A stretch of DNA of 64,000 nucleotides from the NCBI RefSeq assembly GCF_008831285.2, contig NC_045142.1, forward strand, positions 17,795,354-17,859,353, read 5' to 3'. The first letter of the stretch is position 1, and each line of letters begins with the position of its first letter. This document shows positions 17,546 to 41,335 of this stretch, piece after piece. A program made the position numbers and the translations under genes. The stretch comes from Nymphaea colorata (lineage: Eukaryota > Streptophyta > Magnoliopsida > Nymphaeales > Nymphaeaceae). The notes below the pieces were generated by a model. That model was not told the origin of the DNA, ran no database searches, and saw nothing but the letters and a program-made list of their open reading frames with translations.

Positions 17546-19587
17546 TCAACAGAAGCAAGCAGGGAGATGAAAGCTGGAGTCATCTGTTGCCTTCATCCTT
17601 TCTGCTTTATGAGAAACCAGCGAGATGTGGTGAGAGTGATTTGCGTTTGCTGCTGCTCTCCACTTCTCTGCTCGCTTCTCAACCGCTGCCATCCTCTTCA
17701 TTAACCTATCTTCCATATTTGACCTCATTTTCTCTATTTTCAGCTGCAAGAAGAAGCATCGTATCTTTCAAGAACACGGATCAGTGTAAGGCAAGTTCCA
17801 TCTTCACAATCAGTTTGTAAAAGATTGATTTCTATCTTTTTCAAAGGAAAAATGTCTAGATCTTTTAGCTAGTACAAAAGCAACATGTAGCACTGCATTT
17901 TCTTTTAGGTTCACTGAACATTGACAACTGTGTCAAGTACTTACCTCCATCTTCTTCAGCTCAGCCTCTGCCTTTGCATCCTGCAGGTTTATCCAGGCTT
18001 GTATCTTTGCCTCCTCTCTTCTGCACCTGAAATTCAAACACCCCGACAAATGCCCTTCAAATTGAAATCACCTCTCAGCTACAAGCAATATACAACTAAT
18101 GGTCTTGAAGTAATCAATTCCTGATATTCAAAAATCACCTTGCAAAAGCAAAGAAGATCTTCTGCAATTCTTTTATATCGCCTAATAAACAGCAAAAAAT
18201 ATTTTATCATAACTGCTTCCAATTCTTACTCCGATGCACGATCCACACTGATGAATTCTTGAAAAATCATTAATAAAAAATAAAAATAATTCAAGCAGAG
18301 GGCTTGGTCTGCAAGCCACAATCAGGAAACCAACCAGAGACACTATATCCACATATATGTATGGATATGTATAATGGTTCCTGTTCTTTTTCAAGGGAGA
18401 GCTGCCTCTCTTTCGAGGCAGTGAAGTGTGTTCCTTTGGTTGTTCGTTGCGTTACTCTTGAAGAGCACATTCCTCTGTTTACTATAGTAGATTCCTTCGC
18501 TTCTCCTTCACTTGTGGCTCTAAACAAATGAATGAACCACATAAATCCAGTGTTTCCTTATTCTTTCTCTCTCCTCCTCTTCTTACGATTCTTGTGTTTT
18601 ACTTATTTCAATTGGCATGCAGCAGCATGTCCTTCCATATAGAATTCTTTGGACGCCAGATCAGATACTCCCGGAGTATAGACACGGCAGAGTTTCTGCT
18701 GGATATGAACAAAATATGACTTTAACCAAGCAAACGTGGCGAGTTTGGGACAAATTTTATGGATTTTCTGCCTGCATGATCCACTTTCGAAGCACCGTAA
18801 TTGAAGATCATAGTAACGTAGAGGTAAAGAAACAGAGAAGAGAAAGGGAGGCTACAATTTTTGTACCTGATGCAGCATTGCCTACTCTCCTTCTCATCCT
18901 GCACATGCTTCCTTGCTCTAGCAAAACCATTCTCCAAACCACTCCACACTACTTCTTCCTTTTCGTTTCCCGAATTCCAGTTATTCAGCGAGCTCCCTTC
19001 AAAGAGTCCAATACTGCTCATCACAGTAGAAGTTGTCGCTTGAGTATTAAGTACAGAAGAGGCAGATAGTTTCCTGCTTTTCAGACTGCATCCATCTGCA
19101 TTATTTCCCACTCGGCCGGCTTCTGCATATTCCAGACCGTTGTAGACGCCTTTACCAATGTCCATAAACCTGTCTGAAGAACAGAACATAGTTGTGAATC
19201 AGAATGCCGTGCTCTGGAGAATATGGCGAAACTACCAAAGACAAAAAGGGAAACAGAGGAATCAGAAAGTTAAGGTTAGAAACGAGAACCTTTGAGAAAA
19301 TTTCTTGGTGGGTTGTCATCCAGAGGAGCTTCAAAGGAACGGTTAGCGAGAGGAACCATGGTGGCCGACGATTGGAACTGCTTGTCAATTCTCTTGTTTC
19401 CTTTGGTGCTCTTCACTGAGCGTGGGGACTGAAGGGGGTGCAAAGGGCTGGTCTTGACCCACTTCTCTGCTTCGTCCCATTTTGAAGGAAGATGCTTCCT
19501 TAGTTGAATTGTTGAGGATGGGTGCTTCTTGGTGTGGGTGATAGAAGCATCTGTGGTTCCTGAAATTGGGTTGTCATACAAAGGCAT
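17546..19587 (-). CDS. Remorin family protein (C-terminal remorin domain), about 6 exons
   Basis: Remorins are plant-specific plasma-membrane nanodomain proteins with a C-terminal coiled coil. Exons in transcript order are 19290-19587, 18867-19173, about 18335-18519, 18139-18181, 17945-18026 and 17546-17743. The N-terminal exon carries LPSKWDEAEKWV, seen in the long remorins of this type. Exon 2 begins DRFMDIGKGVYNG. The C-terminal domain reads CRREEAKIQAWINLQDAKAE, then AELKKMELKIEKMRSNMEDR and LMKRMAAVEKRAEKWRAAA, a clear remorin coiled coil. Phases agree at every junction given. The donor of exon 3 is ambiguous (three possible in-phase GT sites between 18335 and 18353). The segment just before CRREE lacks the usual WxxAEKAK stretch, so a small exon may be missed. 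The start is the first Met of the open exon. Confidence 0.85.
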
Positions 19588-19618
19588 TCTGGATGACTCT
19601 CTGGTTCAGATTGGGTTC

Positions 19619-19661
<43 letters not shown>

Positions 19662-19894
19662 CTCTCTATGTGTTCCTGCTTATACAAGAGAGAGGGATGT
19701 GGTTGGCGAATCTCTCTCCATCACCTTCTCTACGTATGCAACAAGCCTCTCTCTGGATCCCACTCTCTTCAGAGGGAACAAGCCTCCTTTTGTCTCCCTC
19801 TCCAAAGCGGAGTGACTGAGCCAATATTCCACTCTGTCTCCCTCTCTTCTGTGGGAACGAGCGGTGGCAGTGTGCTGCTCTAGAAGAAGGGAGA

Positions 19895-19954
<60 letters not shown>

Positions 19955-19960
19955 CCGTGC
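19588..19960 (-). promoter_or_regulatory. 5' leader/promoter region of the remorin gene with CT/GA microsatellites
   Basis: On the transcript strand this region holds two pyrimidine-purine runs: (GA)n on the plus strand at 19622-19659 and (CT)n at 19899-19951. Such dinucleotide runs are common in plant 5' leaders and proximal promoters, and those close to start codons often lie in the transcript. A role in regulation is inference from position only. Confidence 0.45.
19899..19951. repeat. (CT)n microsatellite
   Basis: An uninterrupted run of about 26 CT dinucleotides. With the opposite-phase GA run at 19622-19659 it could form an imperfect inverted pair, since GA and CT are complementary. Confidence 0.95.
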
Positions 19961-22039
19961 AGAAATTCAGTAACTACGAGTACCCACTTGCAGTGGGCTG
20001 TCAACCATGGACTGCTTTTTATCTGTCGATGGAACGCACATCCATGTGAGAATGTATTTTATCTGAGAAACAAAAATTTACCAAAGTTTTATTAATTGTG
20101 TTTAAGAAACGTACGATTGTTTTAATAGGGGTAGCATGGTTCATAATTGGTCGGACTCTTAAGTTAGTAAGGTCTTGATCATCAATTTGATGTTTGAGGT
20201 ACAAATGAAGAAAGAAATGGTGTCAACCTCTCGTTCAATCACCAAGTAACCCATGATTGGGAAGGGTCCTGTTTGTCTCATCCCTCTTGTTGCAGCATGT
20301 TGGTCAATATTAGTTTGCTTCAATTTTTAGACTTTAGTTTATCTGTAATATGATAGCTCCTTCAATAACGTGGAACCATATACAGGGACATTCAATCAGG
20401 TAAAATCAATTCTCAAACTAATTGCCATTTAATCTACACGCGTGTTTTATATCTCATAAATGAAAAAAAAGAAACTAATGATTATTAATTTTTTAAGATT
20501 TATCAAGTATTATTTGAAGTAAACGTACAATTTGTAAATTATTTTTTGACCCATTAAAAACGTTTCGATCACTAGAAGTGGAAAGCATGAGGTTTGAAAA
20601 GGGTGCAAAGTTGCCAACATGATACTAATGAAGATAAGAAAAAATTGAAGGTTGTGCAAGATATTTGAAGCGATGTTATTTATGTGAGTGTCTATGTGCT
20701 CGTTTCCATTTTAGCGGAAGGCCCCCCTTTCCTATTCCCCTCATCCCTCAGCTTTTAAGGCTGTTTTATGGTGCCTAGAAGCAGGCCTCTTGGCCGCTTA
20801 CCAGCCCCTGCCCCGACCCATTGCACCAACCTCTTTGGTACTTATTGCCGACATGACATCATATGGGAGCGATGATATATGTTTAGGGATGTTAATGGAT
20901 GAGATTGGAATCAGATCTATTTCTTTAGTAGATTCCGATTTACCGGATGTTTACCCATTCAAATTTGAAATTTAGATTAAGAAAATTCCATACCACAGTC
21001 GAATCTGATTGTTAAATTCATAATCTGGATCTTATCTACACCCAACTTTTAATTTCACATCTAAACCGGCCTTTAAATACCTAACCAAATTTAAACCACC
21101 TTGTGATATGTTAAGAACCTTGTATTAAATATAGGATATTTATTTGAACCAGAAGGCAAATCTTAATCCAAATCTGATCATATAGTTATTTAAAACCAAA
21201 TCTGAATAATGAATCCAATTGAACGTCATTTCTTAAATCCAAACCCAATCTGATTTCTTAATCTGACGTTACTTATTAAATTGAAATCAAGGACTTCCTA
21301 AGAGACAAGAACTACAATTTACACCATTGATATGAACAATGACTATCAATTAAATCTCAATCTTATTTGCTTTACACTCGTAAACAGTAGTAGTCTTAAA
21401 TTCATCCTAATTTTATTTTTATCCAATCTCACTTTTTAATTATCTTTAAACTAGGAGCCCATTAAATCCCTGGTAGTTGGAAGATACCATTGACATTAAA
21501 AGAGAAAAGAAGAAGAAGAAAGAGATGAAAAAAGAAGAGAGAGAGAGTAACAAATGGATGGAAGGAGAAGGCGTATAAATTTTTTCATGTGGCCGTCAAT
21601 TATTGGGGGGGGCGGATGGCACCGAAATCGACCCTTTTCTACGGTTTCTCCTTTGTCTTTAATGCCATATTTAATGGGAGTAAAGATATGAGGAAAGGGT
21701 GTAGGGCCAAGATATCAAGGATTCTGTAGGTTCTGTCCGGACTGTGATCTCTTGTTTTTTACGTGCTTTAATGTCCGTTCTGTTTTAGGAGTGACTGAAT
21801 AGTGACTCTCTCACCTCACTCGTGAGAGAGCCGTCGTTCGATTCATATTCATCGTGATGAACAAAAACATAAAAGAAGAATGTATTTTGACCTAACATTA
21901 ATATATTATATAGTCCTCATGAGTAATATATTATATAGTCCTCATGAGTAAGTTGGATGAAACTTGATAGCTAGTCACCATTCAATTTTCTTCGACATGT
22001 CCTTCTATCCTATTTCTATCACTCTTTATGTACACAAAG

Positions 22040-22120
<81 letters not shown>

Positions 22121-22757
22121 TGTATGTATGTATCGTTTGAAAACATGTTAATCTCCATTAATATGTTGTTGAAGTCGAAAACCAGCTAAAGCAAAACTTT
22201 ACTTAAAATTATGCTAAAATTATAGCTTGAGGTTGTGTATGTGTATGAGCGTATTAACTTGGAGGCAGTGTTTGGTAACAATGGATTTAAGATCCGATGT
22301 ATATGCACTTCGAGAGCAATTATTTAAGCAAATATGTGGATTTCAAATTTACCACTTTTAGATTTATTTTATGGTTTGATAGAGATTGAATACTAAGATG
22401 GAATGGAAGTGGGTCCAACCTTAAATCGATAGATATGATATCAATCACCCGGGATTTGATCTTTTACTGCACCCTTAATTAAAAAACCACAGATTTTGAC
22501 ACCGGAGAGAAAAGAGATTGGACGAGAGTCTAGTGGATTTCATTTACGGTCTAAGGCAATCACGAGTTGCGGTTTGAATCATTGGTTTTTCTTTTGAATT
22601 TGTATTGAATTTGTATTGAAAAATTGTGAAATTAATATTTTCATGAATTTCCTAAAATTTGTAAGCTTTTCCTTAGTTGTTTCAGCGCGTGTTTGGTGCT
22701 GGGACAAATCAATCAGGGTGAGTGTCGCGGGTTTTAGTTTGAGGGAAAGCCTACCAA
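19961..22757. other. Intergenic with microsatellites and repeat remnants
   Basis: No gene recognised. A dispersed repeat rich in ATGTTAATGGATGAGATT and GATTTGGAT-like words spans about 20883-21260. A 25-bp unit beginning AATATATTATATAGTCC is duplicated at about 21899-21950. A compound TA and ATGT microsatellite lies at 22040-22133. Confidence 0.6.
22040..22133. repeat. Compound (TA)n / (ATGT)n microsatellite
   Basis: TA dinucleotides, broken once by GTA, run into about ten ATGT tetranucleotides. Likely highly variable between individuals. Confidence 0.95.
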
Positions 22758-23210
22758 AGGGCTGCACAACGAGCCGAGCCAATTCGGGCTTGACGAACTC
22801 ACTTGAAAAAACTCATCTTCTAGTTGAGTTCAAGCTTACAAAAATACTCAAAATGATAAACAAGTCGACCGATACTCTATATAATATTGTCAAAACCATG
22901 TCACCAGTTTTAACTTTTATGACAAAACAAATTTTCATAAATTACAATTATAGGAGTTAAGTGCTTACACGAGTTACATGGATTAATTGATTACACGAGT
23001 TAATGTCAAAAGAGTTAACCCCTAAAGAGCTAAACAGGTTAATCAAGTCGAGTTCGAGCTAAATGAGTTAATGCAGAAACGAGTTGACACCTAAACGAGC
23101 TAAATGAGTTAAACAAGTCGAGTTCGAGCTCGATTTTGTGTAATCAAGTCGAGTTTGACTTGCGTGTTTTTTTTTAGCCGAGTCGAGGGCCAAGAACATG
23201 TGCAGCCCTA
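22758..23210. mobile_element. Small hAT-like MITE rich in GAGTTCGAGCT motifs
   Basis: The left end reads AGGGCTGCACAACGAGCCG. The right end on the opposite strand reads TAGGGCTGCACATG. The flanks are CCTACCAA (22750-22757) and CCTACAGC (23211-23218), an 8-bp duplication matching at the first five positions and apparently decayed. Subterminal arms are full of AGTCGAGTTCGAGCT words. These resemble the arms of the 3.8-kb element at 27473-31250, suggesting a related family. No coding capacity. Confidence 0.65.
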
Positions 23211-26197
23211 CCTACAGCTACGATAGAAAGGGGAAGAAAAGGCGAAACCTTTTGTTTGTTTCTTAAATTATTTTTCTGCCCGTGTTTGGAAACAGGATTC
23301 GGCTGTGTGGTACGATTTTCTCTCCCTCTCTTTTGTGGAAGCGGACAACTGCCATTTTACCTCATGATCTTTAATTAGTGGAAAGTTATTAATAAAAGGC
23401 TGCGCGTATTCTATTGGGAAATGAAAGAGAATAATAATATGATTTTTTGTTGAATTTTTAGGGACATGTTTATGTCTCATGAATAGTAGTTTTCTATTAC
23501 GTAATTTTCCTTACCATTCATTAGAAGAAGATAAATTGCATACAACAAAAAATGGGAATGTAGTACCATACTTTCAATTCCAGATAATTCTACCAAAGTT
23601 GTAAAGACTTGGTGTGAAAGGTTTTTATTTTCATGGCCATTACTTTTCGAATGTATGATACACGATACTCTAATTAACAGGTATATCATTTCTCACTCTA
23701 GATCTCGAAACAATCTCGAAGCAATCTTAAACTCTAAGGCCAGAAGGTAGTTTTTCCACCAATAACAAAAAAAAAAATTTTGCCTGATGAGAAGTCGAAC
23801 ATATACATGCATGTTGCGAGCAAATTAAGCAAAAAGACATTAATTTAATTGCATTATTATACATGCAAAGGAGGGACAAAGATTCATAGGACAAATTTGT
23901 TGCTATTTGGTGCTGCCAACTGCATGCAACTTGTTTGGAAACATGACAAATGATACAACGGGTCGAAGTCCTGTCGGTATCGAACTTGGTGCCGTCAAAA
24001 GTGACAAAACAATCATGTTAGATCTCACCCATTTGCACCCTTAAAAATACATTTTCAAACGATGGCAAGTAAGGTAAGGCCCGCTTGAGCCCTCTCCCCA
24101 CTCCAATTTTTTTTTTTATTTACATGCAAGTTTTAAGAAATCTCACTTATTATATATATAAATTTTGAAAAATGATATTTCTGCTCTAATCAAAATTTAG
24201 AAACTTTAATCCTGCCTCCATCATGAAAAAATTTTGGCTCTGCTCTTGATGCCAAGATTTCCCAAACAAACGTTTAACATTATGTACAACAATGTGAATG
24301 AAGTAGTAAGTTTGAGCCACATGGGCACCCGCACTCTTTGTATGTAACAATGCCCATGAGGACAAGGACCTTAGGAGGTTTAGGGTCGATCTTATTCTGA
24401 GGATGAAGAATTGGTAACTTTTTTTTTTTGAATTTCAAAAACCCGTAGAAATAATTGGTTTTGGGTTGGGGGGGTGGTAAGTTACGATACAAGGCTGATT
24501 CGGGATTTAAGTGGGGAATGAGACATCCATTAACAAAGTGTCATACATCTATCTTTTGCGGTTCATAGGAGTAGTACTTATGAAAATGGAACAAGCGACC
24601 AGTCGTTTACTGCTCTATCAACTTGACCACCTACACTATGCTCCCATCGGCATAGAAATAATTGGTGAGAAGTACACATCTAATTTGTGGATGTTGGTTA
24701 AAAGTGCAAAGTTTTGTGCTATTAATTAAAAAAATGACATTTTTGTAAGTGAACTCAAGGTTATTATAAGTTAAACAAGAGTCATATGATAAAAAGAATA
24801 AAATGACCTCAATAAGAATAAATTCAGGTTCATTAGTTTGTGGCATAACTGCGTTCAAGAATATTAATACATTATTAACTATATCCAAATTAGTTAATTT
24901 CTTTATTGATATATCAATTAATTATGTGAATGTTTTTTCTTTCCTTTATTAATCTTAGGATGGTATTCAAGGGGAACCCTAATTATATTTTTTAAAAAAA
25001 TTGGTATATATTCATGCTATTTTTATGAACTAAAACATCATTTTCCTGGTTTATTTTTCATCGATTAAACAATATGATTTTCGGCCTATTTGAGTGCTAC
25101 GTAAATTTGATTTCATCCAACTTTTCGTCGATCCTGGCCCATTATCATGTCAAATATCTGCAAATTAGGCTGCAAAATGAGCTTCGTGAACAAATAGGCC
25201 TTATTCGAGCTTCAATGCTAAAGAATGAAAAACAAGTTCACATATTATACAAATCAAAACACAATATAAAGACGAGCAGAGATATTCCCTCATCTTTTCA
25301 AGGTTTTTTTTTTTTTTTTTTGAACAAAAGTTTCAAACGTAATATGTCAGAAATATGGAAACTATGTATAATATATACATGTCCCTAGTAAGCATATAGA
25401 ACATATACGTGTTAAATATGATGCATGTCAAGAAACTTGTTGTGGCTCTAGGATGTAGTTGCGATTAGTAAGGTATAGATGTGAACATATTAGCTTTAGC
25501 TATAACCAAATTTGATCATATGGATTGGGGACTCAAAGTTGGATGTGGACATGAATATACTGATATTTTAAATTCAATTAATAAATAGTTTCAGATTTGA
25601 ATTAGATAATGAATATACATAAGTAGGACCACACATATTTTTAAATGTAAGAAATTAATTATTACCTAGCTGTGTTCTTCATGTCTAAACCTCAGTCAAT
25701 TAAATATATAACATTAAATTAGGTAAAATAAAAAAATGAAAGGTGTTCCTTCTCTTAGGTATACCAAACTTGAGAATCATTTAAGCCATTGATTCTCACA
25801 GGAGATCATATAAAGAAGATTAAGCTTCAAATATAAAAAACAAGTTGTTTTTCAAGATTCTGAAATACCATTCAAACAAAACAATGACTTTTGTGTGTGT
25901 TTGTTTTACCGCGGCCACAGATCTATGGATTTAAGGTCACACCTCCCTCCCCCACCCCACCGCCCAACCAAAACACACACACACACACAAATCCGACCTT
26001 AACTCCACAGTTTATTACATGCAAGTTAGATTACTTAGATCCTTGTGATTTTTTCTTCTATCTTCCTTTGAAGGTGATATCAGACTTTTGAAAAATAGTA
26101 TAGCTTTTATATTTGAAGTTTAATCTCGATTGTCAGATAATTCATTGTTACCATTAATCCAAATGATTCTCATTAAAACATGCTATATGAGAATCGA

Positions 26198-26241
<44 letters not shown>

Positions 26242-26471
26242 TAAAGCCACGACAAACTGTCTCTGCACCATAAACAAGAGCTAATATCAATTTAGTGACG
26301 GTTTTTCAACGATAAATTTTTAAATATTGACCACCTGATACATGGCAACGTTGAAATCTCCTATACATACATAAATATGCATGTGTGCACGCACACTCAC
26401 ACCAAACAGCTTTAACAACGATTTTTAACATATTTTACTCTCCTTCTCTCCCTCTCTCTCTCTCTCTCTCT

Positions 26472-26537
<66 letters not shown>

Positions 26538-27472
26538 CATTGTGTCAGATAGTTATTGTATGTGTAATTAAAATTTAAAAAAATTGTCACTAAAAAATTA
26601 TAAATTGTGCCAAAGCTATCGTAAATTGTCGTCACATTATAAACTTGAGGTAAAGCGGCTGTTTTTTAGGGATAAATTTTTTTATTTTTAACCATTCAGT
26701 AATATCAAGAAGCACACAACATCTCTCTTTCTTTCTTTATATATATATATAGATATATATATATATCCTAACTGCCCCTTATAATGGAGAACTTAAACGA
26801 CAAAGGCCCACCAACATGCCTTACGAGGAAACCCACTGTAGATTGCATTATTTATAATTGTATGACCTAACGGCACCAGGCTTATTGATTTCTCTTTTGT
26901 TCATTTTTAAGATTTAAAAACTTTCGAGATTGGACTTAAGAAATTGTGATAATAAGAAAATACAACTGACCTTTTTATACCGTTACGCTTTAAGGCTTTT
27001 TTATGGAAAAAAGATTCATAAAATTAATTTTTGAAGGCTGTGGAAAGAACGATAAATTAATTTCTATTTTGTCTTTTAAAAAATAACATGAAAAACATGC
27101 CTAACTTTATTAGTACAATTACGTTTTCTTTGAGGAACTTCCTGAAGTTAACTAAAAAATATCACAAAATATTTTTAGTTATTAATAACAAACTTATTTA
27201 GATATAATAACACAAAGTAAGGAACTTGTTATTTCCTTTTATTACAGATATGTTGGTTCTTTTATTATATTAAGTCGATCTTAATTTGGTAATAACCTAG
27301 CGGTACTCAGAAAATGCGGGTTTTATATTAATGATGAAAAAGGAAACCACATTTTTCTACATTTCAAACAAGAAATTGTTCGAAATTGATTTCTGTTGAA
27401 TCCATCATGTAGATCATTTTTATACACTTTCATGGTGTACGCTCTGTGTGCGGAGCCTGGAAGGCTCGCAGG
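23211..27472. other. Intergenic, AT-rich, no gene recognised
   Basis: Open frames here are short and without motifs. The stretch contains microsatellites (TA runs at about 26202-26231 and 26475-26534, CT run at about 26444-26473). A repeat remnant with GGATTGGGG- and GATTTGAATTAGATAATG-like words lies at about 25470-25640, related in style to 20883-21260. Nothing else was identified. Confidence 0.6.
26444..26534. repeat. (CT)n followed by (TA)n microsatellite
   Basis: A CT-rich run of about 30 bp is followed by about 30 TA dinucleotides. A second TA run lies upstream near 26202-26231. Similar phrases around the runs (TAAATTTTT after GATAA; GTCACTAAAA) suggest an underlying decayed element. 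Confidence 0.9.
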
Positions 27473-30400
27473 AAGGGGTGAACACGAGCTAAGTCTAGCA
27501 CGAGTTCAGTCAACTCGAACTCTGCTCGACTAAATAAGACCTTGAGCTCGACTCAGCTCGAGCTTGAAAATAGCTCGACTATACTGGCTCAAACTCGACT
27601 TGGTAGTCAGTTGTCGAGCTCAAGCTCGACTCGATTAAGCTCGATAAACTCGTTTACAATCATCCATACTTGCTGCGCTCGAGCTCAATTAAGGCTCGAT
27701 TGACTAGTTACCAAGGAACACAAAAAGAAAACAACTTAGTGCAATAGAAACAAGATTTTGCACAGTTAGCCTTATGGACTTAATAATGAATTTAGCACCA
27801 GGAGAACTTAACCATTCTCAATCACATGCATGACAATTCACATTCCAGCCTCCCAACACGTAATATTATGATTTTGCACATGACAATTCACATTCCAGCC
27901 TCCCAACAGGTAGCAGCAGTATAAATTATAAGAGGCCACATAAATAAAGCATTTAATCAACATACTATAGAAAATGTGTGTCCCAAAGGCATGGTAAAAT
28001 GTAGGTCCTAATACATCATGTTGCCTTAACTGTCAGAAGTTTATTCCTTAACTGGAGGATGTCTATAAGTGATAAGACTAACATCCTAACAAGTACGAGT
28101 CTTCATGTTGCATTGCATATGATTTCTCTACATTCTGTTGGTTGTGCATTTCATCAGGGGACCATGAGTCCGTGCGGGTGTTATGCACCAACTCTATGGG
28201 GCATATCTGCTTTAAAAATATTTCGTCATCTTCAAACTACAATTCAACAATGAAAATTGATAAACAAACAAGAAATGTCAACAAAGTAAAATGAAAATCA
28301 CAAGCATTTCCTCCTGTTCTGCCTCTCCATAAATAATGTTATGTTAGAATACTCGTTTTTATCATTTCACATCTAAATTTTCTGGTTAAAATTATCAGTA
28401 GATGTTAGAATCAACATTTATTACCATGGACAAGGTGCAGCAGCCTCAATACAAGTACCTGTAACTGTAAGAAGATATTCCTGTTACCATGGACAAGAAA
28501 CAATTGATGAAACTTACAGTGCTGTCAACATATGACTTTGGTTATGTAGTTCCATCAAATTCATTCTAAATGAATGGGACTTGTTCATAATTAGCTTGTT
28601 CAGAAGTATGTAAAAATATGTGAACAAATGTTTTGAGAACCCTCTCTCTTCTCAAGGAACCAAAACTTGAAAATAAATCATCCCTTCCTCTAACCACAGT
28701 ATCAGCAAGCTCCTGAATAACATAAAAAAAAGGCTGTCACATTATTGTCAAATTTAAAAAATTACTTTTTAAGTGCACAATGGTCATAAACACTGACAAT
28801 AATGAAAAAAAAAAACACCAATAAGCAAAAGATACAACAAGAACATTTCTTAAGAGTTGAAGGAAAGTTAAGAAACTTTATCACTAACTCAAATTCACAT
28901 ACTCACTTCATATAGAAGCTCTTCACACAATCATGAGTCATGAACATTGGATATCGAAGCTGAAAACTGCAAGAGGCAACAGAAACAAAGACTAGAACCA
29001 CATTAGATCAAGAAAAAGAAGAAAACAAAAAAACGAGAAAAAACAAGCATTACCAAGAGGAAACTTAATCATTCTAATGATACATATTCACTTGATTCAT
29101 CCTCAACCTGAAAGAAATACATATAGTCAATTAACAAATGATTCACAAAATATTTAATGAATACAATTTCTTCAAAACATACTTTTATTAACACTTCATG
29201 CATTGGATCACCATCATTCTTTACCCAATTACCCAATCATTTGAGCTTTGTCTCGAATCACATACTTGCTTGCCCCTATCAATGATATTTCTTTCTAAAT
29301 TTGTCGTTCTTCAAACTAGTAATTTTTTCTCCTGCTCAAACTATTATCCTATTTGAACATGAAATTTGACAAAAACATATTACAATCTAAGAGAATATGA
29401 AATAAAAAGCAGTAGTTCTCATTATTAAATATAAAAAACACTAATCCCAACTGGAAAAACAGCATTTAGACAATACAGAATTTGGAATAAAAAAAAGAAC
29501 TATATGAGCATACTACTAATTGAGAATATCATTTTATAACAATAGATTAAAAATGGAAAGAAAAAAAAAAAAGGTTATCCGTTCTTGCTGGAGCCTGATA
29601 TAATAACCCCTATCAGCTGTCAAGATATTTCAAGCCATCTTCATTGTAACATACATATGACAATACAAGCAAAAAAGCAAGCAGTAACAGATCCTATGCA
29701 AAAAGTAGTTCCAATCACATACAAATCCACATTCATATAGGCTTACACAAACAAAAGACATCCTTATACAGAATACCAAAAAAAACTACTTCATCATTGG
29801 GATAAATATCATAAAATGCAATGGAACTCAACACAACCATGAGAACAATGATTAATCTGCCGAAATAACACCACCTAGACCAAAACCCCATATTTTTTAG
29901 TTAATAATAAATGAATCAAGTTAGTGAGTGAAGGAAACAAGAAGCATACAAAACAGCTTTCACTAAAGTTTCTCGGTCTACCAATAATTCAGTATCGTCA
30001 ATCCCATTAAGGCATGACTTAGGTTTCATATATACATGTAAAGTATCATCTCACAAGATTACCAAGTGAAAACATGGCTCTATCAAGTGTATAACAAAAC
30101 AAGATGACATGGAGGAGACAAATTAACTTTTAGAACTGCTTTTCAGGGAACCAAATCGTTGCAAATTGGAAACCACCATCCTACCAATAAGCTGGAAAAA
30201 ACACTACAGCTGTCATGGTGAATTTAACACGCAATCACTTACCGAATACAAGTAATCGACAGCCCTCTCAGGATTATTATAAGCAGCTCGTAAAGCACGC
30301 ACAACCGTTTTTGTACTGTTCTTAGGGCCAAATATGAGGCCAATGAAGTTACCAAGTGGATAAGCTTTCAGCTGCACACACACAAAAACTAGTAATAAGT

Positions 30401-31250
30401 TAAAAAGGTAAGTCAAATATTGTAGTTGGTTTCTCTGAGCTATTTCCTCAAACACTTTTTCTTCTATGCAAGTGTTCATAGTGGGCACAATCAGCTAGAA
30501 ATTTTCTACAAAAGAATTTTTGTCGAACACTTTTCTATGCAAGAATACGCATTTTTCTTCAATAATAGAGAAAGTCCGAAGCAAAAAGAGTTATCTGTTG
30601 CAAGAGCTATTTCGGTCCCTCCATGCGTCCTCATTCCAATAAACCAAAAGTCCCAACACTCAACAACTTAAAGGCTTAAACCATGGAACAAGGAAAATGA
30701 CCAACATTGGCATGGACAGGAACCTTGGGCTGAAAGTTGAAGGGAGAAGGGCAAGGCTGAGATGGAGAGCACACGCAGGAGCGGAGAGCACAGGAGAGCA
30801 CAGGCAGGAACCTTGGGCTGAAAGTGGAGCAGCCGGCTGACCTTGAAGGCGGAAGGCTGAAGTGGCCCGCGGACGAATAAAGGTTAGGCTATTAGGGTTG
30901 CAAACTTGCAATGGAGGAACAAGTTTCAGTCACAGACGGAGAAGAGAAGGAGAAGTCGGAGTTGGAGAGAGGGAGAACAAAAATGGAAACCAAAAACTTA
31001 AAAATTAAAACTGAAAAATAGTTTCCCGCATGAGACTGAATCGGTTTTTTTAAAACCGGTATTTTAATACATTCTAGCCGAGTCGAGCTTTAACGAGGTC
31101 ACTTGAGTGAACTCGAACTCCAACTCCACTTGATTAGTTGAACGAGTCGACTCGTGAACTCGACCTTGACTCGTTTAACTAATGATGCAGCTCGAACTCG
31201 CTTACGAGTCGAGCTTAAATGAGTTGAGCTCGACTCGTCGTTTACTCCTA
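27473..31250. mobile_element. Non-autonomous hAT-type transposon, 3.8 kb, carrying a RAD23 gene fragment
   Basis: The element is flanked by a perfect 8-bp direct repeat, CTCGCAGG, at 27465-27472 and 31251-31258, diagnostic of hAT-type insertion. The left end reads AAGGGGTGAACACGAGC. The right end, on the opposite strand, reads TAGGAGTAAACGACGAG, an imperfect terminal inverted repeat. About 200 bp at each end is packed with CTCGAGCTCGACTCG-type words in opposing orientation (27480-27720 and 31075-31245), typical subterminal arms. No transposase frame was found, so it is probably moved by enzymes encoded elsewhere. Inside lie a RAD23 UBA exon (30243-30371, -), a direct repeat of about 30 bp near 27828 and 27875, and a duplicated phrase AGGAACCTTGGGCTGAAAGT near 30719 and 30806. 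The undamaged target duplication argues for a fairly recent insertion. Confidence 0.8.
30243..30371 (-). pseudogene. Captured RAD23 exon fragment (UBA domain)
   Basis: RAD23 proteins shuttle ubiquitinated substrates to the proteasome through an N-terminal UBL and two UBA domains. On the minus strand a 129-nt exon-like segment encodes RALRAAYNNPERAVDYLY, the signature end of RAD23 UBA1. It keeps a pyrimidine-rich acceptor before it (TTTGTGTGTGTGCAG) and a GTAAGT donor directly after the codon for Ser, so genomic rather than cDNA sequence was captured. The residues before it (LKAYPLGNFIGLIFGPKNST) do not match the usual GGGTWDR-type start of UBA1, so the 5' half is replaced or diverged. No UBL, second UBA or other RAD23 exon was found nearby. 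It lies wholly inside the hAT-type element. Confidence 0.75.
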
Positions 31251-32489
31251 CTCGCAGGGCCTTGACACCACCACCGACACTCCCCCTTGTCTCTCATGAA
31301 AATTTTCTGACTCCGTCTCTATCTATACATACACAGCCTTATTGATTTTACATGTAGATGTAATTTTTTGGGAGAGTTTCTGTAACTTTATTAATCAAAG
31401 AATAAAATTATGTCTAACAGTTATTGATTTCACATTAGCAAGTTTATTTCTAGAAGTTCAAATGAGTATATCCATATCTCATGATGCCCTAATATAGTCA
31501 ACAAAGATTTTGAGTACCTTATAGGTCTCATATTTTGAGGTTATTGCTAGAATTTCCTCTCGCCAATTGAGTATGTGCATATTTAGTCGTGCCAAAAAAG
31601 ATTTTGAGTTGGTGATGTTCCGTCAGGATATGGATGTCGGTAAAAAAAATCTGATTTACATTCAATATTTGATGGAACACACTTCCAGAAAAACGGTATC
31701 TGATTAAAAAATCAAAACAGATTTGGATTTAAGAAATGATATATGGTTCGATTTCGGATTCAGATTTAAATAAATATCATATCCGATTCAGGTTTGGATT
31801 AGATTTAGATATCTTATATCCAATGTTCTTACAATTTGAAAGTTGTATCTTGACCTATGGTAATACAGTTTTGATTTGGATATGAACTTAAAAACCAGAC
31901 TTAAATTGTGATTATATAAAAGTTGAACTAATATGGCCACGTCTTACATGTTCAGAATTTTTAGGTTGCTTAATACCTGGAATTATTATAATAGTTTCAT
32001 GACTAAGTTTTAAATAGAACTTGTTCGATCTTTTTATATGCTTGAGTCTCCTATTTTTTCTGTCAGAGATTCTAACTCCTTTGGTTTGGACTTCTCAAAT
32101 GGAGCGGATGGATCCATTTTAAGTTCAATGTTACCATCGCTGTTACAATGGTTTACAAATTTATTTAGGCAACCGAAAATTCCATTAAAACCAGGTCTAA
32201 GATGAAACTCACTTGGGCTTGATCCATTTGCACTGTTTTATCCGGTAGGTTAGCGAACCAGGTTCTATATCAAGCACCAAAGGAAGAAGAAGATCGAAAA
32301 GAGAAAGAGAGTGGCTGCAGAGTATCTTCTGATCCAACAGTTCTTCCTCTTTGTGTGGTTCATATAAACCCCTCTACTCTGCTCTTCCCACCTCCCCATT
32401 AAACCTCTCTGAATCTCTCTTTCTCACCCTCCTCTCTCAACCCCTCCAAGGAGAGAGAAGACAGTTGCAGACACCTCTCTTTCTCTCTC
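31251..32489. other. Spacer upstream of PHR2, with repeat remnant and leader
   Basis: A decayed repeat with GGATATGGATGTCGG, GATTTGGATT and ATATCCGATTCAGG words spans about 31610-31900 and resembles 20883-21260 and 42740-43200. The last 150 bp before the PHR2 ATG are CT-rich (CTCTCTTTCTC), as expected for a plant 5' leader. No other gene was seen. Confidence 0.55.
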
Positions 32490-35400
32490 ATGGAGAACCA
32501 CCAAGTCACCCTCTCTCCCGAGAAACAGCAGCAGCAGCAGCAAGATGTGGACCAACAGATGCAGCAACAGGAACAAGAGCACCACCCTGATGCCACTGCG
32601 CTTCTTCCATTTGGGTCACTCTCCCTTTCCCTGTACTCCGCCATCTCCCTCCCCAAAACCACCATTGCCACCCTCTCGTCGGCAACCGCTTCCTTCAAAC
32701 CTGCCTTCGTTTCCGCCACTCCCAACCTCACTATCAAATCCTCCCTTTCGTCCTCCCTCTTAAACCCTGCCCTTCCCCCATCCGCCGCAATTCCGCACTC
32801 AAATCCGCCTTCTCGTCGGCGATCATTGCCACTCCTCTCCGTCACCGCCCCGACAATGCCGACAGCTCGCCTGGCGGAGTCTGCGGCCGGAGAACCACCA
32901 TTGTTTGGTTCAGGAACGACCTTCGCGTCCACGACAACGAGGCACTGAGCTCCGCGGATTCGGAGTCGCTGTCGCTCCTACCGGTCTATGTGTTCGATCC
33001 CCGGGACTATGGGAAGTCGCCCTCCGGCTTCGACCGCACCGGCCCCTACAGGGCGACGTTTGTCCTCCAGGCCGTGGCCGACCTGCGCCAGAGCCTTAAG
33101 AAGCGGGGTTCTGATCTTGTGGTCAGGATTGGGAGGCCGGAGAAGGTGCTGGTGGAGCTGGCGAGGAACGTCGGCGCCGAGGCGGTGTTCGCCCATCGGG
33201 AGGTGGCGCACGAGGAAGTGAAGGCGGAGGCTGCCGTTGAGGCGGCGCTGGCGGAGGAAGGGGTGGAGACCAAGTGGTTCTGGGGTAGTACATTGTTCCA
33301 TCTGGATGACCTCCCCTTCAAGTTGGAGGAGATGCCGGCGAATTACGGTGGGTTCAGAGATAAGGTGAAGAGTGTGAAGGTGAGAAGGACAATTGAAGCA
33401 TCCGATAGATTGAAGGGACTCCCTGTTTCAAACGAGGACATCGAACCCGGCCGGATTCCGACGCTCACCGATTTGGGGCTCAACCCAATCTCCGCCCAGG
33501 TAATCCCTTCAAGATTGGATCAATTTCGGTGCTTCTCCTATGCGTTCAATTCCTCCAATATTTACGTTACTTCGTAGTTTTTTGATACATTAAGGTTGAA
33601 CTTGGATTGCAGATTTGCACTTCGACTCAAACTTTTAGGTTCAGACTTGTGCATCATTTGCTACTAATCTGTTGAATTTTTATTCCTTACGTTACATTTT
33701 TAAAGGAAAACTCACCTCCACCAAGAACAAGAAGAGAAGACAATGTAGGTTGGCAAAGATTAAAGTGTTCTCATGTTGTTTGATTTAGCTTTCCAATTAC
33801 GAGTTCGGAAAAGGAGATTTTGGTTGGTTCGGTGCTGCTTGTCAATATTTTTGGTGCCTCTAGCATACGCTAGTGATACTTCAATCTCAACAATGATCCT
33901 CTGTATAGTGTTTATAAGGACAAGAAAACCATAATTATTGAACCTGATATACTCGCAGTATTTGAAATTCTGATGTACTTGGATACTTGAGGAGTTATCT
34001 GGTTGTTGTTCTTATTTATTGAACAGTCTTGAATCACGACTTTCACAGATATAAAAATCGTTTATAAACATCAAAGTTTCTTGGAAAATCTCTTTTCTGG
34101 TAATACAGCCTTATGTTATACGTTCTTCTATAATGTGTCAGTTCATGCATCATCATCTTGAGTGCAGGAGTTTAATTTATACATGGGTGTAAGGTCTTTT
34201 TCACTTTCATTAGGTCCATTTGTAAGTTTGATAATGCTCATATAACCAGAGGTTGTGAGATGTTGATATGTGTAGTATTCTATGTTTAATAAGTGATCGT
34301 TTTGCCATTCATTTTGGTGGTGACCCTTGAATTGAACTTTGATTAGACCTGTCGGAAGTGTATTGCATCTTTTGGGGTTTCTTTTGTGGGGCTTTTCCTC
34401 TTCACTTTACCTAATAACTCCATCTGGAAGTTGGTTCTGGCTTTCTTGAAGAAAATCTGGGGGACAAGAAACAATTTTTGTGGCTAGCTGCCATTGGGTC
34501 ATACTACTGCAGGCTGATTCCAGGCTCTTTTGTTGGATCAAGTCGCTACCCTGCCTCTCTTCTGATGGTGTTGTCCTCGTAAGTTCTTGTGTTGTGTTAC
34601 CTAGGGTTGACCTCTGATAAACCAGGCGCATTAAGAGTTGCAGGGTTCCTCATCATATCTGGTGAAATAATTATCTCAAGGTTCACTACTTCATGCTTTA
34701 ATAAATCGGCTGATTTGTCTTCTTTACTACCATTTGAATCTTTGATATCGGAATTTTGGTTGGTTATGAAAGTTACGTTACATTTTTCTTTGCCTACAAC
34801 ATTGGTAATGGAACGATGAATCGGATGATCATGAGCTCTTGTCATAAGAGAGAAGAAAATGGAACCATTTAGCAGGCTCATCAACGAGTGACCATTTAGA
34901 CCTGAAGGATTATTATGTGCTAGCAGCTCTACCATGCATCTTGTCATTTTACTTCAGTTCACACTAATCTAACCTGGAGTTTAGTCACACTAATCTAACC
35001 TGGTGTTTATGTCATGGAGAACGTATACATGGATAATGGACCCTGTGAAGCAATTTTTTCATGGCAACTTTTATTTTATCCAGGGTGGGAAGCCTGCAGC
35101 CAATGCATCTCTTGTTGGAGGTGAAACTGAGGCATTGAAAAAGCTGAAGAACTTTGCTGCAGAATGCCAGGCAAAGCCTGCCAACAAAGATGGGAAGAAA
35201 GAGAATATCTATGGTGCTAATTTCTCTTGCAAGATCTCTCCATGGCTAGCTGTGGGTTGTCTCTCTCCACGCTACATATTTGACGAAGTAAAGAAGACAG
35301 TGAGGTACACTTTCCTCCTTTCTTTTTCCTCTCTTCAGCATTTCTGCTTCAACTTGCCAAAACGTCTGCAATTCCTGAAATTGGTCTTTTGTACTGGACT

Positions 35401-35714
35401 ATTTTGATTTTGATAAATGTTCTTGTCTTCAACAGTGCGGTCAGTGCCTCATTGAAAAATGGTGCTAGTTCAGCTGACACCGGAACAAACTGGCTTATGT
35501 TTGAGTTGTTATGGAGGGATTTCTTCAGGTGCATTTGAAATTACATATGTTACTTTTTGTTTGTTCTGTTAATTATTTAAACATCCCAGTGTTGGGCACC
35601 CTGTTAACTTTGTTCTATTTGGCTGTTTATTTTAGGTTCGTCACAAGGAAATACAGTTCAGCAAAGAGTCTCTCTTCTACTCCTGCTACGGCTTGCGCCG
35701 GTGCTCATGCATAA
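32490..35714 (+). CDS. Blue-light photoreceptor PHR2 (photolyase/cryptochrome-related), 4 exons
   Basis: PHR2 is a plant photolyase-like protein of poorly defined function, shorter than true photolyases. Exons read as 32490-33499, 35084-35304, 35436-35528 and 35636-35714. Exon 1 opens with a glutamine-rich N-terminus (EKQQQQQQ), then FGSLSLSLYSAISLP, and later VWFRNDLRVHDNEALSS and PVYVFDPRDYGKSPSGFD of the N-terminal alpha/beta domain. Later exons give VGGETEALKKLKNFAAECQA, NFSCKISPWLAVGCLSPRYI and NWLMFELLWRDFFRFV of the FAD-domain start, ending PATACAGAHA. The N-terminal frame and the conserved frame of exon 1 differ by one base. The change falls near 32760-32790, where a CCCCC run lies at 32774-32778. 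It could be a real lesion, an assembly or sequencing slip, or a tiny unrecognised intron. Expected length is about 467 aa, close to the family. Splice phases agree at all three introns. Confidence 0.9.
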
Positions 35715-38298
35715 AAACTACCGGATGATCATCAGATAATCTTCAAAGAAGGGTTTGTGCGCAGTCTTTGAATTCATTCTACAAGGAGCAGATCGGCAGA
35801 AAAAGGCGCAACGAGACTGTCTATATTTAGGAGCGGTTGTTCGTTTAGTCTGGAGCATTTTGTTGTTTGTTATTATGCTCTTTGTTTCTTCGGAAATAGT
35901 ATCTGCGAGAACTCGTTCCGAAATAAAAAAGTATTACTCCTCCTCCTTTTTGTCATTTCGCAGCCAGAACGAGGTACAAGAAATGCAATCTCAGTTGCTA
36001 TGATCATATCCCACTGTACTCATGTAGTTTTTCTCCAGATTGGTCTTCAAATTATAAGCAGAACAGAGCAATAACTCAAACAATTACTCAAATTGGTGTA
36101 GATGGTGAAATATATCAAGGTGAGCTAATCTTCTTCAATTTCAACTGAGGGGGAATGCCTATCCTAAAATTATAAAGTGCCTTTTGACAATGGAGACCAA
36201 GTAACCAAGTGGAGCCAACTTTTATTCTAAAGTGTTCTAGCGACTTCCTCAAATTAAAAGCACTCTTAAGAGAGCGTCCCTCAAAGGAAATCAAATGAAT
36301 AACCCATCCCTGAATCTCCTTGAGAAAAACTAGTAAGTCTCCTTGAATGTTCCCCTACTGCCTCTTCTCATACATGTACCTTTGTTTTACACGAAACAGG
36401 ATTGTATCTCTCTTTGAGAAGTACCAATTTTCATTCAAGAATTCTGATGTACGCCCTTACCATTTTCGTTAAGTGTCATAAAACATGGCCTGAATTGGCA
36501 GATTTGAAGGTTGTGTCATGTTACTACTCTTTACTTTTAAAACATTTTAAAAATGTTTTTAAACTTGTTTTTGTATATTTTCTCATTTTGTTTAAAATTT
36601 GCACACGAGAATATTGTTTACCAGTTCTTTACTGATCCAAACTGATTTTTCACAATACCGATTTTTTAGACTTGGAAAGGCAAACAAATTCCTTTTACTA
36701 GAAATACACATAACGATTCATCACGTCATGCATACACTTTGAGTCTAGAAAGTTAGAAAAGTAATGCATTCTTATCATAGACCAGGGTCCTTTTGGTTTG
36801 TCCTTAATGGAAAGTGAGAAGAATGTGGATCAACAGTGCAGAAAGGATTTACATTCCCTTTGTTCGCCATGTGATGAGGAAAGTTTTGAATTGTATTTGA
36901 AATCGGTCAAGCTTTATTCAATTGTTTACATGAAAAGCCTTCTATGTTCTTCCAGGGAATGCGATTCTCAAAACCATGTGATTTTCCATTCTTATATTGG
37001 ACAAAGTAAGCATATCTTTTCAACTGCCATGATCATATTTTATGGCAATCGTGGCAACATCCTTTTCACCTTTCCTTTTTAAATTTCTAATGGTTATACT
37101 TTTCAAGAATCAAAGCCACTCGATGGGCTGTCTAAGGCATGCTTTGATTTTGAATTGCTCTTGTTAAAGAACATAAAAAATAATCGTCTTCTTTATAATA
37201 ATAATAATTACCACTTACAAGACTCTAATAGCAAATATTTTTCTTAAAAACCAACTTTTGAGTCCACTATGTCATGCCCTTTTTAAGGGCTGTTTAATTT
37301 TCTCGTCAGGAGGACGAAAATATATCTTGTTCTTACCATCCAAAAAATAAGATGCAACTGATTCCATATGAAACACATGACGTAGGAAGCATTTGGTAAT
37401 TGCAGAACCAGGTAGTATTGCAGGAATTTATGTCAAAACTTATCGCAAAAATTGTGGAAGATTCACTTAGAGGTAACTTGATTGCTGTCCATTGAAACAA
37501 TACAGACAGAACGTCTTGTTCATTACACTGTTGTCTTGTCCTCATAGACAATGATGTTCCTTGTTCACCGTTTGATGATTTTAGGAACAGAACACTACGT
37601 TCTTCTTGTCTGGCGTTTGTTTCGTGTGTGTCTGTTCTGTCTATTCTGACGTTTGTTTTTGTCTTGTTCGATCTATCTGTTCTGTCTTGTCCAATGTTTG
37701 TGTCTTACATGGTTAGTTATGTCTAGTGTTTGTTTATATTTGTTCTTCTTTAATCAGTTTTGGCTATTATATTTATTATGTCCATGAAACAAAAACAACT
37801 ATGACAATTCGCTAGATAACTAGTCTTCTGTCATGCACACTATTCTTCTCATCAAAACCATATGATATTTTAGAAGATGCATCACCGTCTGGTTTCTGCA
37901 TTTCAGAAAAATAAAAGACAAACAAATAATTAGATCAATAAAGAACAAACTTAAGTGATGAACAAATAACAAAGAGGAAAAGGCAAAGGGGATCCATGGT
38001 AGTTCTATTCATTTTATAAACAAACTTAAGTGATGATAATGAAAATTTTCAAAGGAACAATGTCTTAGCTCAATAAAGTACTATCCAATTAAAAAAAATG
38101 TGAATCATTTTTAAATATACTTGGAACAAGATGAACAGAAGACAGCTAGGACAAAAACAAAGTTCACACAGAAATCAAAGTTCACACAGTGAAAGCTTTT
38201 TATATTTCAAGATGACACTTTGCTGCGAGTTTAACAATGATAGCTGGGAATGCCAGACAGGATTCTTCAACATAGTCCAACATAGTATGAACAAGACC

Positions 38299-38388
38299 AA
38301 GGATAGATAGGACAATACAAAAGTTCACAAGGATAGATAGGACAATACAAAAGTTCACAAGGATAGATAGGACAATACAAAAGTTCAC
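38299..38388. repeat. 30-bp minisatellite, three identical copies
   Basis: The unit starts AAGGATAGATAGGACAATAC and ends AAAAGTTCAC. It occurs three times back to back with no differences. Related single phrases occur just upstream (38145-38180). Confidence 0.95.
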
Positions 38389-41335
38389 ACAGTGACCAGG
38401 TTCTTCCACATAAACCAAGTCTATTCAGACCTCGACATTGGTCATGGTCATGATAGACGATTAACCAATATCACAAGCCATGAAATCGATAACTAAGAAT
38501 CATTATTAACATTGTCAACAGCAAAATGGTTGGCCACAGGGAAAAAGCACAGCCAACAGAATTTTCATGGAATTTTGTTATTGTACAACGACCAAGATCT
38601 AGCTTAGTTTTTTTGTCAGCTTCAATAAAGTGATTATAATTTTAAAAACCATCTAAGGGCCGTAATAGGATGATCATTTCAGCAAAATATCCATTGATTA
38701 ATAACGTTTTTCCTTGTATGATTGCATTTTTGGAAGTTTATGAAGCTAGAAATATAAGAATCTGGAAGGCGCAAGGATAATGGCGATCGTGAAGAGAGCA
38801 TACTGACCAACAAAGTCTGCAGTTTTAAGATCTCCTGTTCTTGGACCAGCAGATCTAGAAAGTAGGAAGGGGACGGACCAAGCTAGTTCCCTGCTGCAAC
38901 CCATGTGCCCCATAAATATGTTTTTCCAAAACCTAGTGACATTATGATATTATTGATAATTAATAATATTATTGCAGTCGCCTGAGTGATGTTACTGTTG
39001 GCTCCCCATTATTGCTAGTTTACAATATTAAAAATTGTGTACATGAAATGCCAACAAATGTGCACATCGGGCGTTCAACTCTCTAACTTAGTTTCTTCAA
39101 CTTGAAGATCAAAGATCCAATCCCCTAGCTAGATGGTTGACAATCTTTTATTCCAATCATTCTTCAATTTTGTTATTTAATGAGAGGACATATTCCCCTT
39201 CCCTATAGAAAATTGTAAGTTCTGCTTCTACTGTTTTTTTTTCCCTGTTGAATATAATACGTTGGAATATGCATTATACAGGACTGCATTTGCTCATGAT
39301 TCTATATCATCCAGACCATCACGGTTCCTTTGAAGCCAGATCTCATTGTGAGAAGCTGGTTTGACCAAATCTGGCCAATATTTAAATGAGTGTAACATGG
39401 TTGGATTGATAGAAGGTTCTTCTTTCACAGGGAAAAAATAAATCAAGTATAAAGTTTTACTGGAGTTCTCTTCTGGAGCACTAGAAAAAGGCGCATCACT
39501 TATCTTTGGATTTCCACCAATCTGATATTTAACTTCCTAACAGCACTCGGAGTCATAATTTGTGCACTTCTACAAATTTAACATAATCAGCTCCGCTTGC
39601 AGTCTCACACACAATGTTTTTCAGTCAATTTCCTTAAAACAATAACAATCATGATTATGTACTGCAGTCTCATTCATGACCCATCATCTGCTTCCTAACT
39701 GATTTCTGCTTTAGCTTTTTAATTGAGTCGATGCTCCCCAAAGATCTATCTGCCAGAGACACAAAGCCAAAACAGATAGAGGTGGAAGTTACATGTATTT
39801 TGGCAAGTTAAGTACTCAAATTAATGATATGGTACCAAATTTCAGCTTCAATCCTATTCTGGTCCTGACTATACAAAGCACAGGAAACAATTTAGACACA
39901 TAAAACAAAGGTTTCTAAAATAGTAAATTATGAGAACAGACTTCCCTAGAGCGTCCTATTGCTAGAAACTGCCAATTTAGATTGCCATTACTTGTACATC
40001 TTATGGTTGGTGAAATTTTTGTCAAATATTTGGGGAATTTAACTGTTCCCATCGTTCTATAGGGCTCAACTAAGCCCCTCTCCATTTACTGTTAAAATGG
40101 AGAAACTGCATGCATTCCTTTATACTCCACTTACCGTGCGTGGAATTGAAACTCATGCTGTACCTTTTGGCTTGACATGTAAGTACCTGGAGGTGACTTT
40201 TACTAGCCACGAGTTGGGGAGAAGCAGTGTTCAACAGGTACCTATACCTCTGCTTCTCAACAGTGTAATAGAAAGAGAGCAATCTAGGATGATCGGGGGC
40301 ACTGTAGATTGCTTCTATCTGATTCATGAACCACTTCCTTCAACCATCATTTGTTTTTCTAATGGTTCAAATCTTTATAGCAGCTGCTCTTGCAGGTGGG
40401 CGAGAGAACAATGGTGTCGTTTCCAGGTGCCAAAGCAATAGAAAAGCAAATTAGCAATGGTACTAAAAATTATTTGTGTGATGAAATCCCAAGATATTTG
40501 ATAACAACAGGAGTTGATTAATGCAGAAACAACATCATTCAAGTGAAGAAGTGTTGAGCATTTCATTGTCTCTTTTCATCAGATAGAGAAGTCATGCATT
40601 GGACTACTTGGCCCCTCGCTCGAGCATCAAGGAAATGCCCAACAGAAATTTTTGAAGGCAAGGTTCTAGGCACTTAAGAGGGCGTTTGGTAGCAGAAAAG
40701 AACGCAGTGTTTCATGCATGGGTTTCCCCTCACCAAACACCCTCGATAAGATGAACCATTATCAGTATGAGCATTTTAATGAACTAAACGAGTAGAATCG
40801 TTTATCCAATTATAGCCATAAAATCGAATTAAATCACAAGAAGAAAACAATGGAGAAATGTTGCCTTGGCAGTAAAGCTAACCAGAGAGAGAGAGAGAAA
40901 GAAAGAAAAAGAGAAGACGATAAACGGCGATTGGGAAAAGGGCGAAAAAGATGACGCCCTTACCTCGACGAGAAGCTGCTGCTGGGCTGCAATGGAAGCT
41001 ACGGTTGGTCTGCTGGTGGCCTGCAAATGATAAACGGAAATGGGAAAAGGGCAAGAAAAATGAGTAGGGCTGCGGTCAGGGAAAAGGAAAACAACAGAGA
41101 GAGAGAAAGAGAGAAGCAGCTTGCGCCTAACCTCGAGCGGAAGAGTCGCTGCTGCGGAGAGCTGTCGTTCCTGCTAAGAAGGGGAGAAGAGGAAGCTGAG
41201 GAGCTGATGGTGAAGCGTCGGCCGTTTCAATCCTCAAGAGAAAACCCTAGTAGAAGGGTTTCGAAGGAGGAGAGAGAGTGCTAAACGCAGCAATTACGAA
41301 CGGCCTCAAGCGCTGCTGCGGCGGTCGCCCTCCAA

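Follow-up and report, generated by a model that had tools for sequence, protein, structure and literature searches.

Whether a transposon in the water lily Nymphaea colorata has taken up coding DNA of the host gene RAD23, and of that gene only, is the question raised by a stretch of 64,000 nucleotides (nt) on contig NC_045142.1 (assembly GCF_008831285.2, positions 17,795,354 to 17,859,353), which was analysed as a whole and is called the window below. The insert in question is 3,778 bp long, lies at 27473-31250 of the window and is flanked by two copies of the 8-mer CTCGCAGG. We read it as a decayed, non-autonomous, hAT-like Pack-TYPE transposon that carries a piece of the RAD23 UBA1 domain and, as is strongly suggested, a piece of a KH domain, and that most likely has no protein function; to this reading as a whole we give a probability of about 0.75. 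The features on which the element is defined, together with its internal repeats, are as follows.

27465-27472: CTCGCAGG, left copy of the 8-bp target-site duplication (the window contains two)
27473-27483, plus strand: left terminal repeat AAGGGGTGAAC, with 8 of 11 bases shared with the right end
27514-27699: left CTCGA-rich subterminal arm, with 14 CTCGA/TCGAG words within 27514-27695
27829-27912: filler-like 34-nt direct duplication at 97% (copies at 27829-27862 and 27879-27912)
30700-30999, minus strand: block rich in G+C (0.527), with a repeat of 24 nt at 96% inside it (30717-30740 and 30805-30828)
31083-31233: right CTCGA-rich subterminal arm, with 6 CTCGA/TCGAG words within 31083-31229
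31240-31250, minus strand: right terminal repeat, reading inward as TAGGAGTAAAC, paired with the left end
31251-31258: right copy of the target-site duplication, CTCGCAGG, the second occurrence in the window

On the plus strand of the window CTCGCAGG occurs exactly twice (at 27465 and 31251), and its reverse complement is found nowhere in the window. As the bases immediately outside and inside the two copies differ, the duplicated stretch measures 8 bp exactly. The 12-bp ends of the element are identical at 8 of 12 bases, and the ends AAGGGGTG and TAGGAGTA come near the hAT end type (8/12 agreement, with A at position 1 of the left end). Subterminal repeats lie close to both ends, as is usual for hAT elements. 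The best inverted pairs between the two arms are 25 nt long (84%) and 17 nt long (88%), and none of 200 shuffles equals the left end with its arm (27473-27720) in self-folding as single-stranded DNA (z = -5.15). Clusters of at least six CTCGA/TCGAG words are found in the window only in both arms and at 23048-23183 (7 words). Within this third cluster, 23092-23158 matches the left arm at 75% over a length of 69 nt (E = 0.001) and is probably a degraded relative of it; a convincing 8-bp duplication was looked for at the cluster and none was found. The short duplications inside the element (34 and 24 nt) look like filler. A scan of all six frames of the element against Pfam at E up to 10 found no transposase domain, although the HMMER filters used there lose weak matches. 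Thus, the initial annotation, which had described a hAT-type element with a perfect 8-bp duplication and no transposase, is borne out by the exact CTCGCAGG pair, the hAT-like ends, the CTCGA-rich arms and the negative scan. As in Pack-TYPE elements, transposase coding sequence is absent from the Pfam scan and host coding DNA, the RAD23 UBA1 half, is present between the ends. It is also observed that the reconstructed empty site (27451-27472 joined to 31259-31275) reads GAAGG-CTCGCAGG-GCCTTG, with the 8 duplicated bases inside a short, imperfect palindrome that may be due to chance.

The host-derived DNA lies on the minus strand in the right half of the element.

30243-30371, minus strand: open segment of 43 codons, exon-like and probably chimeric, with a CAG acceptor at 30374-30372 and a GTAAGT donor at 30242-30237
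30243-30311, minus strand: KTVVRALRAAYNNPERAVDYLYS, C-terminal half of RAD23 UBA1 (Pfam, PDB, simulation score)
30312-30368, minus strand: KAYPLGNFIGLIFGPKNST, similar to the first part of STAR/SF1-type KH domains (PDB, window ranking and simulation in favor; against it, no Pfam match)

The segment translates without a stop as LKAYPLGNFIGLIFGPKNSTKTVVRALRAAYNNPERAVDYLYS, and the splice sites reported earlier as still attached to the exon are in place, CAG before it and GTAAGT after it. Its residues 22-41 match positions 18-37 of the 37-position Pfam UBA profile (E = 7.5e-07, 29.3 bits against a cut-off of 22.4). In PDB, RAD23A is the top match (E = 0.00013) and the best eight matches are all RAD23A or RAD23B (E from 0.00013 to 0.0048), followed by USP5 (0.24) and USP13 (0.3). 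The ungapped score to RAD23A UBA1 is 75, as against a maximum of 49 over 12,321 simulated windows. These results agree with the RAD23 UBA1 signature first proposed for the element. In Pfam scans, the element and the minus strand of its two flanks (17500-27464 and 31259-41200) gave no match to ubiquitin, to the XPC-binding domain or to a second UBA domain. A complete RAD23 gene, or a pseudogene of one, would combine UBL, UBA1, XPC-binding and UBA2; only half of UBA1 is present here. As far as Pfam shows, the exon does not appear to be part of a nearby RAD23 gene; a set of RAD23 exons continuous with the segment outside the element would have told against capture, and the roughly 10 kb of minus strand scanned to each side yielded no further RAD23 domain. 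A folded UBA domain is unlikely to be formed from the segment because only profile positions 18-37 of 37 are present. The new ubiquitin-binding peptide suggested in the initial annotation is accordingly unlikely, and the small RNAs against RAD23 suggested with it are conjectural.

The initial annotation had spoken of a captured RAD23 exon of 129 nt, which holds for the second half, a piece of RAD23 UBA1, but not for the first approximately 60 nt (30312-30371), which look like a KH fragment. This previously unexplained half, LKAYPLGNFIGLIFGPKNST, is similar to the start of STAR/SF1-type KH domains. A 23-residue query from LKAYPLGNFIGLI, labeled earlier as the joined non-RAD23 stretch, was run against PDB and retrieved 11 distinct sequences at E up to 10 (best E 0.14), all of the STAR/SF1 KH type and all relatives of one another rather than independent matches: KHDRBS1/KHDR1 (6), branchpoint-bridging protein (2), SF1 (1), quaking (1) and 2bl5, named MGC83862, which we take to be a quaking protein and which was also matched by a separate KH query. 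Aligned to the STAR peptide KQYPKFNFVGKILGPQGNT, the KH piece scores 56, with 27 for the next-best ungapped score in the window, and it ranks first among 2,087 open segments in the gapped comparison, where the next reaches 33. The simulated maxima are 35 in 30 windows and 53 in 12,321 windows, and the fitted chance of a score of 56 is 2e-5 per window. In view of this resemblance, a KH origin of the first half is probable but unproven. The two stretches, KH-like and UBA-like, would meet at about 30306-30314 with the reading frame kept, and 30243-30371 is probably a chimeric exon to which two donor genes contributed. The early suggestion that the joined non-RAD23 stretch could belong to a chimeric exon has gained from the KH-like resemblance in PDB, in the window ranking and in the simulations (0 of 12,321).

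Several observations weigh against our reading, some of them touching the transposon and others the KH half. To judge the former, we counted exact 8-mer pairs spaced by 300-6000 bp whose ends match at 8 or more of 12 bases, excluding low-complexity words, in the window and in 40 simulated windows. Such pairs are not rare, with 24 in the window and a mean of 24.0 in the simulated ones, and the 8-bp duplication and 12-bp ends prove nothing alone because pairs of this kind occur at chance level. Moreover, hAT ends typically start with C or T, whereas the left end of the element begins with A, and of the plant hAT target-site preference nTnnnnAn, CTCGCAGG fits position 2 and fails at position 7. 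With about 24 such pairs expected per window and imperfect element ends, one may ask whether there is no transposon here at all, the locus being a decayed chimeric pseudogene in repeat-rich intergenic DNA with the 8-mer pair brought together by chance. We consider this improbable. None of the 40 simulated windows contains a pair with hAT-like ends on both sides, a figure that is partly post hoc as the end pattern was written after the element had been seen. The arms, which are two of only three such clusters in the window, begin within about 45 bp (left) and finish within about 20 bp (right) of the duplicated 8-mers. Among the 15,222 exact 8-mer pairs in the window, 11 have at least five CTCGA/TCGAG words inside both 200-bp ends; nine of these are formed by the arm motif itself, one spans the left arm only, and the remaining one is CTCGCAGG. 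The case for a transposon rests on the combination of the duplication, the two-sided arms and the hAT-like ends, and this combination is rare.

For the KH half, the best PDB match reaches an E of just 0.14, no Pfam KH match was obtained for pieces of 20 and 30 residues (short pieces are ill suited to the filters), the second glycine of the GxxG loop is absent (GPKN here, GPQG or GPRG in the PDB relatives), and the KH query was chosen after the PDB matches were known. Codon usage is also undistinctive: the segment scores 0.045 per codon (0.157 for the KH part and -0.044 for the UBA part), the 99th percentile of the noncoding flank is 0.22 per codon, so the segment is not separable from noncoding DNA (749 training codons), and no minus-strand exon receives support from this measure. 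These points would suit a hAT-like carrier of RAD23 DNA only, in which the 60 nt ahead of the UBA piece would be intronic or filler DNA, open and KH-like by accident. We hold this to be unlikely, though to be taken seriously, as all 11 PDB matches are of one KH type, the score of 56 stands against 33 for the next of the 2,087 open segments, no simulated window among 12,321 reaches it, and the KH piece sits exactly between the acceptor-like CAG and the in-frame UBA piece. At the other extreme, the element might drive a minus-strand transcript from which the KH-UBA exon is translated and functional. The open frame, the strong-looking splice sites and the G+C-rich block upstream, which may possibly be the leader of a minus-strand transcript, would be in keeping with such an expressed chimeric gene. 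Both domain pieces are partial, however, other minus-strand coding domains were not found and the codon usage is as described above, and this is the least probable of the explanations considered. The 93-residue open frame around the exon gave no confirmed relative in two contig collections without plant genomes (5 viral and 99 genome pattern matches).

It is also unlikely that the element carries additional captured gene fragments. Two minus-strand segments, LUC7-like (28081-28236) and RPB2-like (28569-28736), gave weak Pfam leads, both below the cut-offs (LUC7, E = 0.0022; RNA_pol_Rpb2_4, E = 0.11). However, the LUC7 lead falls to E = 0.22 in the whole frame, neither LUC7 nor a polymerase appears among the respective PDB matches, and the LUC7-like segment ranks 10 of 2,087 against yeast LUC7 and 2 of 2,087 against a human piece; neither fragment was upheld. 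The LUC7-like open segment comes after TTGTAG. A FAINT match in Pfam (0.036) was taken as chance, Rfam gave no match at gathering score, and a tRNA scan with the bacterial code gave none.

Under the reading that we favor, a hAT-like element with pieces of RAD23 and of a KH gene, the first half of the segment would, as is strongly suggested, stem from another gene, one encoding a STAR/SF1-type KH domain, and the acceptor site would derive from this KH donor and the donor site from RAD23, in a join that keeps the frame. Both pieces were presumably copied as genomic DNA and not as mRNA, because splice-site-like flanks are kept. Capture may have happened when a break within the element was repaired, or through template switching. 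In an alternative published model, two neighboring insertions are mobilized jointly with the intervening DNA, as put forward in PMC8903248; template switching fits better because two donors join inside one segment. The element would then have landed some 1.1 kb upstream of a gene of the photolyase/cryptochrome family, with transposase supplied in trans, since none is encoded in the element and a transposase from elsewhere would have to act on its ends. It is most likely a passenger, a carrier of captured fragments without protein function. Very improbable in our view, though conceivable from the in-frame KH and RAD23 half-exons with a splice site of their own each, is a mobile KH-UBA exon cassette. 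If this were true, genes close to a new insertion might splice the cassette in, or it might be transcribed within the element itself, and it could yield an RNA-binding, ubiquitin-linked peptide or small RNAs against both donors.

Judging from the neighboring genes, the window is presumably plant nuclear DNA. Other features recognized in it are the following.

5891-6748, plus strand: Utp14
13681-15054, minus strand: FAE1/KCS-type ketoacyl-CoA synthase
about 17582-17746, minus strand: remorin C-terminal region
32591-33577, plus strand: DNA photolyase/cryptochrome-family gene
56539-56943, minus strand: Copia-type Pol fragment with a Pol_BBD domain

The Copia-type retrotransposon fragments extend over 56135-56943 on the minus strand and include, by eye, an integrase-like open frame at 56135-56470. 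In addition, 3318-3656 is likely to be a small hAT-type miniature inverted-repeat transposable element, with an exact 8-bp duplication AGCACAAT (3318-3325 and 3649-3656), ends TAGGGCTGGGCA and TAAGCTTGGGCA (9/12), GGGCC-rich arms and an A+T-rich middle; judged by numbers alone, such an 8-mer pair is not rare.

Capture of genes by hAT elements has been documented in grapevine (PMC2528002), maize (PMC3260210), maize and rice (PMC8903248) and animals (PMC8277862). Two Ds2 and nine Ds-l4 elements of maize carry gene fragments, which was called a rare feature in 2011 (PMC3260210); for Pack-TYPE elements, hAT capture was later reported as widespread (PMC8903248). The present element resembles the Ds2 and Ds-l4 elements in its hAT-like ends, its 8-bp duplication and its filler DNA, which in those elements holds exons and introns (PMC3260210). 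Its own ends and arms are CTCGA-rich. With the Pack-hAT elements of maize and rice it has in common that it is non-autonomous, apparently bounded by terminal inverted repeats (TIRs) and flanked by an 8-nt duplication, with host coding DNA inside; unlike them, it is known from a single locus, and two pieces seem to be fused in one exon-like segment (PMC8903248). The same source shows that a Pack-PIF family captured pieces of two genes in succession, and it states that hAT elements acquire DNA in a similar way (PMC8903248). Hatvine-6 of grapevine, to which the present hAT-like element is also similar, is a hAT family with a variable interior that matches host exons and introns, but Hatvine-6 elements are described as sharing a transposase coding sequence, of which none was detected here (PMC2528002). 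In animals, 208 of 370 Pack-TIRs are hAT, chimeric transcripts are described, and capture is argued to follow a break within the element, the gap being filled with template switching (PMC8277862). The likeness to the present case would lie in this route and in chimeric transcripts, and the difference lies in the animal hosts and in the donors, which are known there (PMC8277862). Literature searches that were not exhaustive found, by title, no paper on transposons for the end sequences of the element and none on a case combining RAD23, a transposon, capture and the UBA domain.

The element therefore looks like a further example of the known transposons that carry gene fragments and not like a new system, with a two-donor exon as a likely, modest addition to the known cases. 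For now it illustrates a known process; if two donors do meet in one in-frame, splice-ready segment, it would be a clear small example of how hAT elements make exons.

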